DNA of 40,979 nucleotides from a virus: positions 1 through 40,979 of the IMG/VR virus record IMGVR_UViG_3300044987_002605, one strand, 5' to 3'. The position numbers and the translations under genes are program-made. Of this stretch, positions 4,824 through 15,785 are shown piece by piece. Position 1 is the stretch's first letter, and the number at the start of each line of letters is the position of its first letter. The notes under the pieces were generated by a model. It was not told the origin of the DNA, made no database searches, and worked only from the letters and a program-made list of their open reading frames with translations.

Positions 4824-5089
4824 ACTAATTCATCAACTTTCCACGACCGTGGTTTAAAAGCATCATGCCAGAGCACCGGGCAGTATTTGGCGTATAGGTA
4901 CTGCGAAACATATTTCATGATGTGACCCCTGCGGCCTTCTGATTCGCAAATTCTGCATAGTTTCAGCTCATTTTCGACGAAAGTACATTTCATCATTTCC
5001 ACCACGTTTTCAGGTACGATGCCGTCAAGAATATCTTCTGAAATTACCATGACTTCGCCTCTGCGCCGAATTGAAACAAAGTAATTCAT
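4820..5089 (-). CDS. Hypothetical protein
   Basis: 89 aa beginning MNYFVSIRRRGEVMVI. It has Cys/His residues in KLCRICESEGRRGH and a later KYCPVLWH that might form a zinc site. Overlaps the replication initiator stop by ATGA upstream and the 58-aa gene by ATGA downstream. Not recognised. Confidence 0.6.
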   Translation of the reverse strand: MNYFVSIRRRGEVMVISEDILDGIVPENVVEMMKCTFVENELKLCRICESEGRRGHIMKYVSQYLYAKYCPVLWHDAFKPRSWKVDELV

Positions 5090-6165
5090 CCGAGCGTTCC
5101 CAATGCCAATAGGTTTGATTCAAGTATCATCGGGTCAGGTTCCTCGGACTTTTGTATTTGTTTCCAGGCTCCTTCGTGCAGCTCCCACATGGCTCCACAC
5201 TTGCATCCAGCTGAGTCGGTGGTGTGGCGGATGGTGCCTTCGCAATGGGGGCATTTTTCGGGGGGTGGGGGGATTTTTTTCCGGTTGCGCATGGCTTCGC
5301 GTACCTGGTCGCCGATGGCGGCGGGTCCGGTCTTGTTTCGCAGGCATCGGGTCCAGGGGTCGGCGTCTGCGGCGTATTTGGAGACGCCGGCGGCCAGGAA
5401 GCCTTCGAAACTTTTGTATTCGGGGTCGGCGGCGTGTTCGGGGCTTCGGGTTATTCCGGAGTAGTTTTCAAGGGCGTTTTCGATTTCATCGTCGGTGTAG
5501 ACTTTGATCGTTGCCAGGCAGGCGGCGAGGATGTCGGGTCGGAAATTGAGCGGGGTGTATCGACAGGGCGGTTTCAGTTCCTTGGCGTTCCAGATTTGTC
5601 TGGCGGTTTCGATGCGGGTTGTTCCGTCGGTCCTGTTCGGGTTGAGTTCATCCGAAAGTAAAAAAACGGGCGCTTCGGTCTTATATTCTTTTTCTTTCTC
5701 TTTATCTTCTTCTATATCTATATCTTGCCGTTTCACTTCGCGTTTCAGTAACGTTACTGTAACGTTACTTGGTGATGATTCGTCATTGTCTGTCTTTGGT
5801 TCCTCACTGGCCGCCCCGGACGTGACGGCCCGCTTTTTCTCTCTCCAATTGCGTACACGCTCGGCACTCTCAGACTCAACGTCCTGGTATTCGTGCCAGT
5901 TCACGATTGTTATGCTTTCGTCGTCGGCTATGGAAATAAAGCCTTTCTTGGAAAACGCGGTGAGCAGTTCGCCGAGGCGTGCTTCATCCACTATGCACAG
6001 GTAGGCAAGCACATCGCGCTCCATGGACACGACACCGTCGTCGTCAGCCCTGGTGAGCAGGGCCATCCATATAAAGCTGCATTCGTGACCGTATTTGGTA
6101 ATCATGAATCTCAGCTTTTCGTCGTTCGGGGTGGAAATGTACAGCTTACGCCATGGTTTTTTCAT
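5086..6165 (-). CDS. Replication initiation / replisome organizer protein
   Basis: 359 aa. The N-terminus (KKPWRKLYISTPNDEKLRFM ... WMALLTRADDDGVV ... LLTAFSKKGFI) resembles the winged-helix N-terminal domain of phage replisome organizers and DnaD-like initiators. An acidic low-complexity linker (DIDIEEDKEKEKEYK) follows, then a helical domain, and a C-terminal zinc ribbon (CPHCEGTIRH ... CKCGAMWELH). These proteins bind the phage origin and recruit the host helicase or its loader. Two tandem palindromes and an A/T- and purine-rich tract inside the gene could be the origin, as in lambda O. No separate helicase loader is seen, so the C-terminal part may do that job. Confidence 0.7.
   Translation of the reverse strand: MKKPWRKLYISTPNDEKLRFMITKYGHECSFIWMALLTRADDDGVVSMERDVLAYLCIVDEARLGELLTAFSKKGFISIADDESITIVNWHEYQDVESESAERVRNWREKKRAVTSGAASEEPKTDNDESSPSNVTVTLLKREVKRQDIDIEEDKEKEKEYKTEAPVFLLSDELNPNRTDGTTRIETARQIWNAKELKPPCRYTPLNFRPDILAACLATIKVYTDDEIENALENYSGITRSPEHAADPEYKSFEGFLAAGVSKYAADADPWTRCLRNKTGPAAIGDQVREAMRNRKKIPPPPEKCPHCEGTIRHTTDSAGCKCGAMWELHEGAWKQIQKSEEPDPMILESNLLALGTLG
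5748..5768. repeat. Tandem palindromic repeats inside the replication gene (candidate origin)
   Basis: GTAACGTTAC, a perfect 10-bp palindrome, occurs twice with an 11-bp period. A strongly biased pyrimidine/purine, A/T-rich tract lies beside it at about 5676-5728. Location in the middle of the initiator gene, next to an easily melted tract, is like the iterons of lambda-type origins. Only two copies are visible, so this is a candidate only. Confidence 0.4.
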
Positions 6166-6322
6166 TCTGCTTCCTCTGTTTTCTTTTCTTGGTTTCCGAC
6201 CCTACACGGCCATGGTTGGTGTGCGTTGGCAGGTTGCAGGCGGAGCGCCTGGGAGCTGAAACAACAACCGTGTCGGGCATGGTGTTTTCCGTGAACCACA
6301 GGCGGGCTTCCATGTGGGTCAT
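6146..6322 (-). CDS. Hypothetical small basic protein
   Basis: 58 aa starting MTHMEARLWFTENTMPD and ending in a very basic tail (TKKRKQRKQNEKTMA). The start overlaps the DUF4406 stop as ATGA, and its 3' end overlaps the replication gene start by 20 bases, carrying that gene's ribosome site. Could be a coupling peptide; no domain recognised. Confidence 0.5.
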   Translation of the reverse strand: MTHMEARLWFTENTMPDTVVVSAPRRSACNLPTHTNHGRVGSETKKRKQRKQNEKTMA

Positions 6323-6645
6323 AGGTGGGACCTGGCGTGGTAGTACGCCTGCATGTCGCTCAGGTTTTCGAATACCGGTATGCCGATTTTCCCGGCCAGC
6401 TCTATCTCGATAGCCGCCCCGGATGAATCGTCGCAACCGTCCAAAGTGAACACCGCGTCGGCGTCCATCATGACGCGGATGCAGTCCCGCATGGCCTCTT
6501 CCCAGGTGCTTCCCGGCTTGACATGGTTGTGCGGTATGTACGGGTTGAATCCATGTCCCTCAAGGATTGCGGCGGCCGCCTCGAATGCCTCGCGGTTCTC
6601 TCCTGGCAGGCCGGTTACCGGGCCGGATATGTAAATCTTTTTCAT
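6319..6645 (-). CDS. DUF4406 protein (nucleoside deoxyribosyltransferase-like fold)
   Basis: 108 aa with the family hallmark MKKIYISGPVTGLPGEN at the N-terminus, then MRDCIRVMMDADAVFTLDGC, then SSGAAIEIELAGKIGIPVF. This is the layout of nucleoside 2-deoxyribosyltransferase-like phage proteins annotated DUF4406. They are thought to act on nucleotides or nucleotide-derived signals, but the substrate is not established. Coupled by ATGA to the genes on both sides. Confidence 0.85.
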   Translation of the reverse strand: MKKIYISGPVTGLPGENREAFEAAAAILEGHGFNPYIPHNHVKPGSTWEEAMRDCIRVMMDADAVFTLDGCDDSSGAAIEIELAGKIGIPVFENLSDMQAYYHARSHL

Positions 6646-7370
6646 ACGGCTACCTCATTTGTTAAAAGACGTTTGGCTATCCAGACCTCGCCTCGGCCGG
6701 TAACGTAGGTTTTCGAGTACAGGTGGTCCACGCCGTTCATTTCGTAGGTGCTCTCACGGACGCGGAAGTACCCGGCGTCAACGTACTGCTGGTACGGAAT
6801 CCAGCTTTCACCGCGGCGGAACATGATGCCCTGGTCGGCGAGCAGGTCGAAGATTTTCTGGGGGCCGATGCCGTTGATCTTTCCGATCTCCGAAAGGGTC
6901 TTGAGGCCGACGGCGTTGGTGATCCGGTCGGCGGCGGCGGCTGACGGGGCCAGCTCGGCTATGATGCGGTCCTTTTCGTCCAGGAGCTTCTGCGCCTCAA
7001 GGACGGCAAGTGCCAGGAGTTCCGGCCCCTTGGGTGCTTCGCTTTTTGTGTAGCTGCCGGTTTTCCGGATGGAGGGTAGCACCTCGGATGTCACCCATTT
7101 GCGGAAGCGGCGGGCTTCGGGCTTGTCGGACCGGAGAATGACCGAGTACAGGCCGGATTCGTTCACCATGGTCTTGAACGGGTTCCCGGGAGTACCATCC
7201 ACCAGGCGGATAGTATTCTTTTCGTCATCCTCCAGGCGGTCCGCCACATTGCCCACGTTTGCTATTCCCAGAGCGGCGCATACGTCGGCAAGCATCCACC
7301 AGGGTTCGCCGTCTACCACGGACATGCGGATGGGGCGGTCCTCGAATTGTTTCTGGATGAGGTGGTTCAT
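6642..7370 (-). CDS. Phage antirepressor (BRO-N plus KilAC-like)
   Basis: 242 aa from the ATG at 7370, preceded by GGAGGGAAACCC. The N-terminal BRO domain is visible as IRMSVVDGEPWWMLADVCAA, VADRLEDDEKNT, GLYSVILRSDKPEARRFRKW and SEVLPSIRKTGSY. A helical linker follows, then a C-terminal ANT/KilAC-type domain (LKTLSEIGKINGIGPQKIFD, then GESWIPYQQYVDAGYF). Such proteins bind DNA or the repressor to promote lytic growth. A longer upstream start (to 7550) would lack the ribosome site and overlap a likely 33-codon gene. Confidence 0.9.
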   Translation of the reverse strand: MNHLIQKQFEDRPIRMSVVDGEPWWMLADVCAALGIANVGNVADRLEDDEKNTIRLVDGTPGNPFKTMVNESGLYSVILRSDKPEARRFRKWVTSEVLPSIRKTGSYTKSEAPKGPELLALAVLEAQKLLDEKDRIIAELAPSAAAADRITNAVGLKTLSEIGKINGIGPQKIFDLLADQGIMFRRGESWIPYQQYVDAGYFRVRESTYEMNGVDHLYSKTYVTGRGEVWIAKRLLTNEVAV

Positions 7371-7468
7371 GGGTTTCCCTCCATCGACTGTATGGCGTTT
7401 TCCAAAGTTCCAACGGCTATCCACCGTCCGCAAAAATGCACGTACCACATTCCGAATTCCCGCTTCAT
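7367..7468 (-). CDS. 33-aa micro-ORF coupled to antirepressor
   Basis: Begins MKREFGMWYVHFCGRWIAVG and ends in SMEGNP. The ATG has a strong GGGAGGGGAA site, and the TGA overlaps the antirepressor start as ATGA, the junction style used by nearly every gene on this strand. The product is too short for a domain call. It is either a real micropeptide or a leader controlling antirepressor translation. Confidence 0.5.
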   Translation of the reverse strand: MKREFGMWYVHFCGRWIAVGTLENAIQSMEGNP

Positions 7469-7625
7469 TTCCCCTCCCGTTTAAATAAGAAACGCTCGGC
7501 TGGCCGGATCGACGGCCATTGGGGGTACAACCGGTTACCCGGCTTGCCACGGCGCGTGATGTCCCGCACCGGTTTATTCCCGCCCCGGAAGTGGAGTGGC
7601 TTCCATCAGGGACCGAACAGATTCG

Positions 7626-7708
7626 TGGAAGCGTCCGGCGTTGACCCGGTGACCTTCATCCGTAAACGGGGTCGTTTCTTGCCGCCTTACCCTTGCGGCC
7701 TCGCTTCC
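7626..7708 (-). ncRNA. tRNA-like element 1 (acceptor stem perfect, T-arm imperfect)
   Basis: 83 bases whose ends pair perfectly over 7 bp (5' GGAAGCG with 3' CGCTTCC) and leave a single A as discriminator; CCA is not encoded. Inside is a D-arm-like hairpin GCCGC-AAGGGTAAG-GCGGC and a CCGG-GTCAACG-CCGG arm in the T-arm position, which departs from the TTC consensus. I could not find a canonical 5-bp/7-base anticodon arm. It is a degraded or unusual tRNA, or a tRNA mimic; no amino acid can be assigned. Confidence 0.35.
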
Positions 7709-7864
7709 TCAGTCACTTTGTCGGTCGAGGCAGTAACCGCCTCTGGTATCCCACCGCTAGGGGCACCGTTGCCCACCCCGTATCGCCGGGGTCACGCGGT
7801 GTTTTTCCGGGCCACCCGCCCTTAAGGTTTCCGACCGGGTTCTAACCGGCTCTGTTATCCCTAA

Positions 7865-7958
7865 TGGAAGCGGCGGGAGTCGAACCCGCTCACGCAGTCA
7901 GCGGGGAGAAGTGCGTTTCGGCTTCATCCGCTCTAGGTGGCCCAGCCACTTCACTTCC
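7865..7958 (-). ncRNA. tRNA-like element 2 (canonical T-arm, class II length)
   Basis: 94 bases. The 3' part is a textbook T-arm, GCGGG-TTCGACT-CCCGC, followed by acceptor strand CGCTTCC and discriminator A, with no encoded CCA. The 5' end GGAAGTG pairs with it over 7 bp (one G-U). The length would suit a serine- or leucine-type tRNA with a long variable arm (ACGCA/TGCGT can pair). The anticodon arm is not canonical: the best stem is GAAG/CTTC closing a 10-base loop without U33. Decayed tRNA or tRNA mimic are both possible. Confidence 0.4.
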
Positions 7959-8030
7959 TTTTCTCCCGTCTCTCCGGGCTGTCGGGCTACTACTCGCCTT
8001 GTCGTCCGCTCAACCCCGAGCGGCTAGGTA

Positions 8031-8129
8031 TGGAAGCGGCTGGAATCGAACCAGCTGGCCGAAGCCGTCCACAGTCCACAACTGGCCCGCCGCAGCGCTT
8101 ATAGCCTACAGGCCCAGGACGTCGCTCCT
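8031..8129 (-). ncRNA. tRNA-like element 3 (canonical T-arm)
   Basis: The 3' part is a perfect T-arm, GCTGG-TTCGATT-CCAGC, followed by the same CGCTTCC acceptor strand and A as in the other two elements. The best 5' partner is AGGAGCG (six pairs, one terminal mismatch), which gives 99 bases; the 5' boundary is therefore uncertain. A CAG-TTGTGGA-CTG arm with a 7-base loop could present GUG, but only three pairs support it. No confident isotype. Confidence 0.35.
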
Positions 8130-8134
8130 GGAAA

Positions 8135-8172
8135 GCCCCGCGTATCCTTCGGCGGACTTTGCAACGCGGGGC
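8135..8172. other. Strong GC-rich hairpin upstream of tRNA-like element 3
   Basis: Nine perfect pairs (GCCCCGCGT with ACGCGGGGC) around a 20-base apex that contains a smaller TCC/GGA stem-loop. On the minus strand it is followed by CTTTCC, too short a U-tract for a typical intrinsic terminator. It may protect or separate RNA segments between the secreted-protein gene and the tRNA-like island. Confidence 0.4.
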
Positions 8173-8227
8173 CTAAAAACGCTGGTTTTCCTGCCCGTCG
8201 ATATGCGCCAGCCCGCATACCAGGGCG

Positions 8228-8521
8228 TCAACCGAACAGCACTGGGCTGGGGTTTATGACACTTTCATTTTCAGTCAAGTTAAAAAGTATGAACACCGGT
8301 TCATTGTGGACGGTCTCGACAAGGATGGGTTCGGCCAAAATGGCCAATGCTTCACAGACCGCGTCAAGCGGTGCTGCTACTTCCTCCTTCAGGTCGGTCT
8401 TGGTCTCTAACAGGATGGTGAACCCAAGCGCGGGTTCGTTGGTCGGCGCATACGCCGCCGCTGTTGCCGACATAGCGACCAGCAGACATGCCAGCAACAG
8501 CAGGAGTTTACCGGTTTTCAT
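8228..8521 (-). CDS. Small secreted protein
   Basis: 97 aa from ATG 8521, which has an AGGAGG site; a GTG nine bases upstream is too close to that site. MKTGKLLLLLACLLVAMSATAAA is a classic Sec signal peptide with an ATA-A-A-type cleavage region, and no lipobox Cys at the right place. The mature part is acidic with hydrophobic patches (EEVAAPLDAVCEALAILAEP, then PVFILFNLTENESV). No family recognised. A secreted product in the early region suggests a host-envelope function. Confidence 0.6.
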   Translation of the reverse strand: MKTGKLLLLLACLLVAMSATAAAYAPTNEPALGFTILLETKTDLKEEVAAPLDAVCEALAILAEPILVETVHNEPVFILFNLTENESVINPSPVLFG

Positions 8522-8598: not shown

Positions 8599-8666
8599 CC
8601 TACGGTCTCCGGGGCGGGAGCCACAATCCAACCGCCGGGCCGAAACACCGTGCGGGAATTACCTGG

Positions 8667-14426: not shown

Positions 14427-14602
14427 TTGTGAAAGAACTTGAAGCCATGATCCAGGCGGGCGACACCAAGGGCGTTGCCCTGGCTGGAGTGCGGGCGATG
14501 CAAAATGGTGATGATCCAGGTCCATGGGATGACGCACTCGCCGCCGCCGTGCGCGTGCGTGATCTGGCCAGGCCGCCTATTGATCCTCCGATACCTGAGT
14601 AG
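14414..14602 (+). CDS. Hypothetical small protein
   Basis: 62 aa (MAGLVVKELEAMIQAGDTKG ...). It overlaps the lipoprotein gene's end by 13 bases and the integrase gene's 3' end by 26 bases from the opposite side. Composition is plausible for a helical protein ending in a proline-rich tail (RPPIDPPIPE). No good ribosome site. Uncertain. Confidence 0.4.
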   Translation: MAGLVVKELEAMIQAGDTKGVALAGVRAMQNGDDPGPWDDALAAAVRVRDLARPPIDPPIPE

Positions 14603-15785
14603 CCCCACCCCTCGCCGCCTCCATCTTGTCGCGGATCGATACTGAACGCCTCAGGATGGTTGCGTCGTCGGGGTGCCGGTAGATAGCATTGGTTATGATG
14701 TTGGAGTGACCGGCGAGCATCAGCACTTCCTGGTCGTTCAGTGTTTCCAGGGCGTAGGTGACGAAACTATGCCGCAACCAGTACGGGGTCCAGCCCTCCG
14801 CGTCGTAGCCCAGGCGTTTTAGGGCACGCTCGAAAGCATCGCCAACCGCCGCCCCGGACACAGGAGGTCCGTCTGTGGCCGTAAACATGAATTCATCATC
14901 GGCGCCGTGGCGTGACTCTGCCCGCCAGATTGCCAGTTCCTGCACGGTGCGCATCTGGAGGTACCCCGCCCGGATCACATCGGTTTTAGTCCCCTTGATC
15001 TTTTCGGCTGTCCCCGACTCAACCCCGTAGCGGATGGGTAGGTACCGCTCCGCCGGGTAGTACGCACCCCATTTCAACGCCCGAACCTCTCCTGGCCTCG
15101 CGCCCGTGTCATTGAGCACGCACATGAGAGCCGCCCACATGGACGATCCCCACACCCGCACCAGCTCGCCATGGGAGGGCGGGAACAGCTTTGCCAGAAC
15201 GTCCCTGGACAGGGCTGACCGTTTGCGTTCTGGCTCCTTGGAATATTTTACTATTCCAGCGCACGGATTCTCGGCGACGATCCCCTGATACACCCAGCGG
15301 TCGTACATAAGCTTTACGGAGTACAGCAGTTTGGATCTGGTGCCCTTGGATAGCGGCTTGATGGATACCGGCGTTTTCCGGCCCCGGCGGGCGGTGAACC
15401 GCATGGCGTCCAGGATGGTCCGGTCGATGTCGGAACCTTTCAGCTCGCGGGCGTCCCAATCGCCGAACAGCGGAACGATGTAGTTGACGATATGCCCCTG
15501 CCTGATGGACAGGCTGGCATCGGTCATGGGACGGCCTTTCTTCAGCTTGTCCTGGTACCAGGGGGCGGTTGCGTCGAAGAATCCTGGGGCAAGGTTACGA
15601 ATCAGCAGCTTGGTATCCGGCTTGGACAAAAGGCGCGTCTTGTTCCGCTTTGCCCACTCCAACGCCCTCCCCCGGTCGCTCTCCGGGGTCATGTGGTACA
15701 TCCCTGGGCTCTCCGCGAAACCCACCATATACCGCCCGGAGGCGCGGTCCAGCTTGTGCTTTATGTCCTTGACAGGTCTACCCAT
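14577..15785 (-). CDS. int: Tyrosine recombinase integrase
   Basis: 402 aa. An N-terminal arm-binding segment, then a SAM-like core-binding domain (IRQGHIVNYIVPLFGDW ...), then the catalytic domain: Arg230 in NDTGARPGEVRALKWG, Arg338 in WTPYWLRHSFVT, His360 in MLAGHSNI, nucleophile Tyr369 in NAIYRHP. The usual first His of the HxxR box is Tyr here (YWLR). It integrates the phage genome by recombination between attP and a host attB. The start has no ribosome site; TACAAT six bases upstream suggests a leaderless message. Convergent with the moron genes. Confidence 0.93.
   Translation of the reverse strand: MGRPVKDIKHKLDRASGRYMVGFAESPGMYHMTPESDRGRALEWAKRNKTRLLSKPDTKLLIRNLAPGFFDATAPWYQDKLKKGRPMTDASLSIRQGHIVNYIVPLFGDWDARELKGSDIDRTILDAMRFTARRGRKTPVSIKPLSKGTRSKLLYSVKLMYDRWVYQGIVAENPCAGIVKYSKEPERKRSALSRDVLAKLFPPSHGELVRVWGSSMWAALMCVLNDTGARPGEVRALKWGAYYPAERYLPIRYGVESGTAEKIKGTKTDVIRAGYLQMRTVQELAIWRAESRHGADDEFMFTATDGPPVSGAAVGDAFERALKRLGYDAEGWTPYWLRHSFVTYALETLNDQEVLMLAGHSNIITNAIYRHPDDATILRRSVSIRDKMEAARGGATQVSEDQ

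Follow-up and report, generated by a model that had tools for sequence, protein, structure and literature searches.

The 40,979-base virus record IMGVR_UViG_3300044987_002605 (the window, analyzed at its full length) has the gene content of a temperate tailed phage with nearly all genes on the minus strand, and it carries, on the minus strand of a gene-free island, three tRNA-like elements, A, B and C, that all terminate in CGCTTCCA. The substitution pattern across three phages indicates that element B (7865-7958, minus strand; 94 nucleotides, nt) is a selected, non-decoding tRNA-like RNA, working rather than decayed, because all of its helices have been kept by compensatory change. As B lacks an anticodon arm, it would be unable to decode. 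We tentatively favor a trans-acting role for B, in which it would mimic the acceptor-elbow half of tRNA, over a role as cis-acting punctuation. The elements are new as a family, and B is conserved; the literature searched, which lacked most subscription papers, yielded no description of tRNA-like phage elements built in this way that do not decode.

Homologs of B were found in two further phages, L059 (1150-1243, plus strand; 85% identity across 122 nt) and L104 (1462-1560, minus strand). The L104 match was blind, being made by a covariance model built from B and L059 only (49.7 bits, E=4.6e-9, within 0.69 Mb searched). In the alignment of B, L059 and L104, 97.8% of cells pair and nine of the 30 pairs have changed on both sides, a count that rests on only three sequences and was reached in none of 500 shuffles. 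When pairing partners were slid by one to three columns, no more than one compensatory pair was left and pairing fell to roughly half or below. All six helices, i.e. the acceptor, the D-arm, the outer and inner helices of the central arm, the T-arm and a pseudoknot, show compensatory changes, so that the conservation of stems in relatives, which the first-pass annotation of this DNA had named as a check, holds for B. Pairs were counted in the model-fitted alignment A6, as the MAFFT alignments A2 and A3 misplaced the L104 acceptor. The model behind A6 lacked the pseudoknot, whose covariation is thus no fitting artifact.

B starts with a perfect acceptor of seven base pairs (bp), GGAAGTG/CGCTTCC, including one G-U pair, and has a 5-bp T-arm (GCGGG-TTCGACT-CCCGC) and a D-arm (GTGGC-TGG-GCCAC) in which a 5-bp stem carries an unusually short TGG loop. 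The discriminator is A, and CCA is not encoded. At the anticodon site lies a central arm (7901-7931, minus strand) with two compensatory pairs in each of its helices, an outer GCGG/CCGC helix (7928-7931 with 7901-7904) and an inner GAAG/CTTC helix (7922-7925 with 7908-7911), closed by the conserved loop CCGAAACGCA (7912-7921). This loop pairs with a stretch 5′ of the T-arm (ACGCA, 7912-7916, with TGCGT, 7892-7896; span 7892-7916), giving an H-type pseudoknot that replaces the anticodon arm. In the three phages the pseudoknot helix reads ACGCA/TGCGT, GCGCA/TGCGC and ATGCA/TGCAT, and acceptor position 3 is A-U, G-U and G-C; in addition, the unpaired stretches CTAG, CCGA and GAC are conserved in the B family. 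With a pseudoknot and no anticodon arm, B fails as an odd class II tRNA, one of the first-pass options. A small open reading frame (ORF) within B, MKPKRTSPR, was considered and dismissed, as it is absent from L104.

Element A (7626-7708, minus strand; 83 nt) likewise has a perfect 7-bp acceptor (GGAAGCG/CGCTTCC), a D-arm whose loop contains GG (GCCGC-AAGGGTAAG-GCGGC) and a 4-bp T-arm (CCGG-GTCAACG-CCGG) whose loop retains T55, C56, R57 and A58. Without any constraint, its minimum-energy fold is a cloverleaf with an irregular arm at the anticodon site. Element C (8031-8128, minus strand; 98 nt) combines CGCTTCCA with a perfect T-arm (GCTGG-TTCGATT-CCAGC). A 5-bp stem around TTCRANN occurs at exactly two sites in the whole record, one in B and one in C. 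None of 4,000 dinucleotide shuffles of the island contained two T-arms (shuffle mean 0.0035), nor did any contain two T-arms each followed by the same 8-mer (0/4,000); the 8-mer repeat taken alone is a weaker test (P=0.064). Fold z-scores against shuffles were -3.3 for the whole island, -2.4 for A and -1.5 for B. The first-pass annotation had described three minus-strand elements of 83-99 bases with a common end, two with perfect T-arms and TTCGAYT loops, two with well-paired acceptor stems and none with a standard anticodon arm, in a gene-free island. This observation is confirmed. No minus-strand ORF of at least 60 amino acids lies within 7551-8227, and neither of the two plus-strand ORFs in that range matches Pfam. 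The plus-strand ORF at 7864-8259, which begins MEAAGVEPA, runs antisense to a T-arm; plus-strand frames of this kind are likely spurious gene calls and could help to find more elements.

Established tools do not assign the island to a known RNA class. ARAGORN reported no tRNA by default and, in relaxed mode with introns allowed, only scattered implausible calls that offer no intron explanation. Rfam gave no match in the island at gathering thresholds and no family at E<=10, the tRNA family (RF00005) included. Nevertheless, parts of the tRNA plan are present: the 7-bp acceptor plus TTCRANY T-arm fully in B, the T-arm only in C and the acceptor with a variant T-loop in A, as well as, in A and B, a D-arm with a GG-bearing loop. 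A 5-bp anticodon stem with a 7-nt loop is missing, B having its pseudoknotted arm with a 10-nt loop. For C, tRNA-Sec (RF01852) was rejected at 15.4 bits against a threshold of 47, the UCA anticodon arm that goes with an 8-bp acceptor in that family being absent; the UGG mini D-loop, which recalls tRNA-Sec, was likewise dismissed as a link, the Rfam score being far under threshold. GOLLD, ROOL and YrlA gave no Rfam match at gathering or E<=10, the presence of each family in the library not being checked separately; GOLLD and ROOL are other phage RNAs found near tRNAs (PMC12286853).

Comparable elements were gathered from other phages by exact-pattern scans of viral contigs for a T-arm plus CGCTTCCA; as this selects on the acceptor, its recurrence outside the window carries no evidential weight. 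Strict acceptor plus T-arm matches are expected by chance at 0-0.1 per record (12 records scanned). Besides true tmRNAs and true tRNAs, the scans returned elements with odd middles that ARAGORN misses, in L006, L017, L024, L030, L034, L035 (two), L041, L042, L047, L050, L052, L057 and L059; a similar element in L051 is called tRNA-Cys by ARAGORN. The middles are diverse. Those of L024 (319-358, plus strand; 40 nt) and L042 (6251-6299, minus strand; 49 nt) are gone, leaving acceptor and T-arm only, L047 (1137-1268) and L109 (3117-3220) have normal D- and T-arms with an anticodon loop expanded by inserted hairpins, and L050 and L051 have extended arms. The L109 element is a tRNA by Rfam score and is rejected by ARAGORN. 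Because the D-loop GG is retained in most elements, the D-loop/T-loop elbow is probably intact. The L034 element (2201-2284), which is unrelated to B in sequence and sits directly 5′ of a normal tRNA-Thr, has the same pseudoknot topology (TGGAT/ATCCA; P=0.027, uncorrected, with 21 elements tried); in the remaining relatives this topology was absent or not significant. In L105, a tRNA-like gene (6317-6389, minus strand) with an apparent 8-nt anticodon loop lies beside a normal tRNA-Arg with a similar leader hairpin.

Further relatives were scarce. The B model scored A and C weakly (21.2 and 23.7 bits), and no homologs of A or of C were detected. BLASTN against phages and plasmids returned T-arm fragments only, a B-core pattern gave a single, unrelated match in genome contigs, a degenerate viral scan for B relatives recovered L104 again along with coding regions, and a search by neighboring gene produced no B copies beyond L059 and L104.

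The elements sit in tRNA cassettes, as judged from leaders that they share with genuine tRNAs. Most are preceded, 3-9 nt before G1, by a GC-rich hairpin whose loop is often GCGAWA or CGCGTAA. Although modest one by one, such hairpins reach P<=0.04 against shuffles in 12 of 30 upstream regions. B has such a hairpin 6 nt upstream (CCCG-GAGAGA-CGGG, 7965-7978, minus strand), which aligns with CCCG-GCGATA-CGGG of L059, and direct reading reveals a possible one 7 nt upstream of C (CCCCGCG...CGCGGGG, 8136-8171, minus strand). The same leader type precedes genuine tRNAs in L105 and L085. At a site syntenic between L085 and L104, where the upstream gene is 78% identical, the near-identical leaders share 57 of 68 bases, and the bodies downstream of L085:5333-5375 and L104:1583-1625 are a normal tRNA-Met in L085 and the pseudoknotted tRNA-like RNA in L104.

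RNase P, RNase Z, the CCA enzyme, T-loop modifiers and EF-Tu all recognize the half of tRNA that consists of acceptor, T-arm and D-loop GG. Going by the known substrate rules, the tRNA-like RNAs of the island would be matured by the host like tRNAs, though unable to decode: RNase P would cut before G1, RNase Z would trim behind the discriminator A, CCA would be added by the CCA enzyme, and T-loop modifying enzymes would act. With less certainty, the stable product may mimic the acceptor-elbow half of tRNA in trans and occupy, or shield against, a host protein that recognizes this half, while presenting no anticodon that could be cut or read; a tRNA-targeting defense nuclease or a tRNA-handling enzyme are candidate targets. 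In L030, the gene directly after the element belongs to an RNA ligase family (PF09414, E=9.6e-16), a single case that hints at a tRNA-damage context. The first-pass idea of a mimic of tRNA ends agrees with the anatomy, in which acceptor, T-arm and GG-loop D-arm are kept and the anticodon end is replaced; the decoy function and target that went with it are what we infer.

Somewhat unlikely, in our estimate, is that the elements serve instead as cis-acting punctuation. In this scheme, RNase P and RNase Z would excise them from a polycistronic early mRNA, and the cuts would define message ends or free ribosome-binding sites, much as happens at mitochondrial tRNAs and at the t-elements of plant mitochondria. 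The 3′ ends of the L059 and L104 elements indeed abut the following gene at its Shine-Dalgarno sequence and start codon, a leader hairpin stands just before G1 in most elements, and L024 and L042 resemble the minimal RNase P model substrates used in the laboratory. However, processing has no need of the B pseudoknot, D-arm covariation or conserved unpaired stretches, and the pseudoknot and unpaired stretches are why we favor a trans role for B; moreover, apparent promoters, identified by eye, lie directly upstream of the L006, L017, L034 and L052 elements. That the elements are decaying or fast-diverging phage tRNAs that no longer work is unlikely: phage tRNA sets are variable, and L045 and the first L105 element are close to normal tRNAs, their anticodon loops being altered, but decay, an option raised at first pass, is contradicted for B by its nine compensatory pairs. 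Several observations weigh against reading the elements as trans-acting mimics. With only three B homologs, its conserved loops rest on few sequences; minimal elements such as the 40-nt one of L024 fit a processing signal better; and the 5′ acceptor strand of C, GGAGCG, is one A short, leaving 6 bp with a bulge as after a one-base deletion, which would also suit decay, and C folds no better than shuffles (z-score +0.5). Common ancestry of A and C with B is unproven, since the acceptor alone is common to all and A and C lack detectable homologs. For A and C, mimicry, cis punctuation and decay are all possible.

Three further explanations have much lower probability. A C4-like antisense RNA, freed by RNase P and controlling the downstream antirepressor as in P1/P7, would match the shared gene order of structured RNA, small ORF and overlapping antirepressor, and the P1/P7 C4 precursor is listed as an RNase P substrate (reference list of PMC12710915). 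This is improbable, given that Rfam C4 does not match the island even at E=10, that island pairing with the small-ORF leader was no better than shuffled (48/100) and that the B homologs are located upstream of other genes. Even less credible is derivation from transfer-messenger RNA (tmRNA) or an alanine-charged mimic. B resembles tmRNA in joining a tRNA-like domain of acceptor and T-arm to a pseudoknot and matches both ends of the Rfam model (RF00023; 21.1 bits, E=2.2e-6), and G3-U70 with A73 is present in L059, L035, L041, L047 and L057. However, the score is under the gathering threshold of 47, the 94 nt of B leave no space for a tag reading-frame domain, its D-arm is paired, and the alanine identity is unconserved, with A3-U70 in A and B and G3-C70 in L104. 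Least probable are attachment-site remnants that carry the 3′-terminal part of a tRNA or tmRNA gene from the host: the combination of T-arm and 3′ acceptor half is like the attP core usual for phages that use tRNA genes, but the integrase gene (14577-15785) is 6.5 kb distant, there are several copies with differing T-stems, and the 5′ acceptor strands are present and covary.

Other known RNAs share parts of this design. Plant mitochondrial t-elements are tRNA-like structures between genes that can serve as RNase P and RNase Z signals; theirs is a processing role, whereas the B body is conserved as a pseudoknot. The bacterial Y RNA YrlA is a non-coding RNA with a tRNA-like module, but no Ro-binding stem was seen in the island elements, which do not match it in Rfam. 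Neither the phi80-induced M3 RNA nor the C4 RNA of P1/P7 is known to combine a TTCGANT T-loop, a D-arm and a pseudoknot at the anticodon site. As far as the reference list of PMC12710915 indicates, both are likewise phage non-tRNA RNAs that offer a tRNA-like end to host RNase P. Phage tRNAs have been proposed to counter host anticodon nucleases, resisting or rescuing from tRNA-targeting defenses (PMC10264068, PMC11555353); those tRNAs decode and have ordinary anticodon arms, neither of which applies here. Theta ribozyme-associated phage tRNAs have extra structured RNA fused to the tRNA gene (PMC10879173), whereas the extra hairpin of the island elements lies in the 5′ leader. Theta ribozymes are HDV-like, with a double pseudoknot that begins at the 3′ end of the tRNA. 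It is conceivable, if rather doubtful, that the elements represent a new class of phage RNA that keeps the acceptor-elbow half, has a pseudoknot, a hairpin insert or nothing at all where the anticodon arm would be, can swap places with true tRNAs within cassettes that share a leader and supplies decoys or inhibitors of host tRNA-recognizing proteins such as tRNA-targeting anti-phage nucleases. Since tRNA finders require an anticodon, such elements are discarded, and non-decoding tRNA mimics may have been overlooked in large numbers in phage genomes. The presence of tRNA genes in phages has lacked a settled explanation for decades (PMC10264068), and the elements would open a direct way to address it should they act on host tRNA enzymes or defense nucleases.

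Beyond the island, the first full gene encodes an antirepressor (Bro-N and KilAC; 6642-7550, minus strand, probable start 7370). A 33-codon ORF with a Shine-Dalgarno sequence (7367-7468, minus strand) overlaps this probable start, an arrangement that resembles the icd-ant order of phage P1. A DnaD-like replisome organizer is encoded at 5086-6165, and terminase and portal genes lie at the right end of the window. No promoter-like sequence was found in the island. By direct reading, the island contains another hairpin, CCCCG-GCGATA-CGGGG (7776-7791, minus strand), with no recognizable element directly behind it and a loop identical to the leader loops in L059 and L050. Outside the island, a hairpin with a conserved apical YACGGTGTTTCGGCCCGG and a variable but paired stem (8635-8650, minus strand) recurs in non-coding stretches of phages, namely L024, L050, L085, L087, L088, L095, L099, L103-L106 and L108-L110, with a near copy, CCGTGTTTCGGCCGGG, in L057; it has no Rfam match and often lies near tRNAs or tRNA-like elements.
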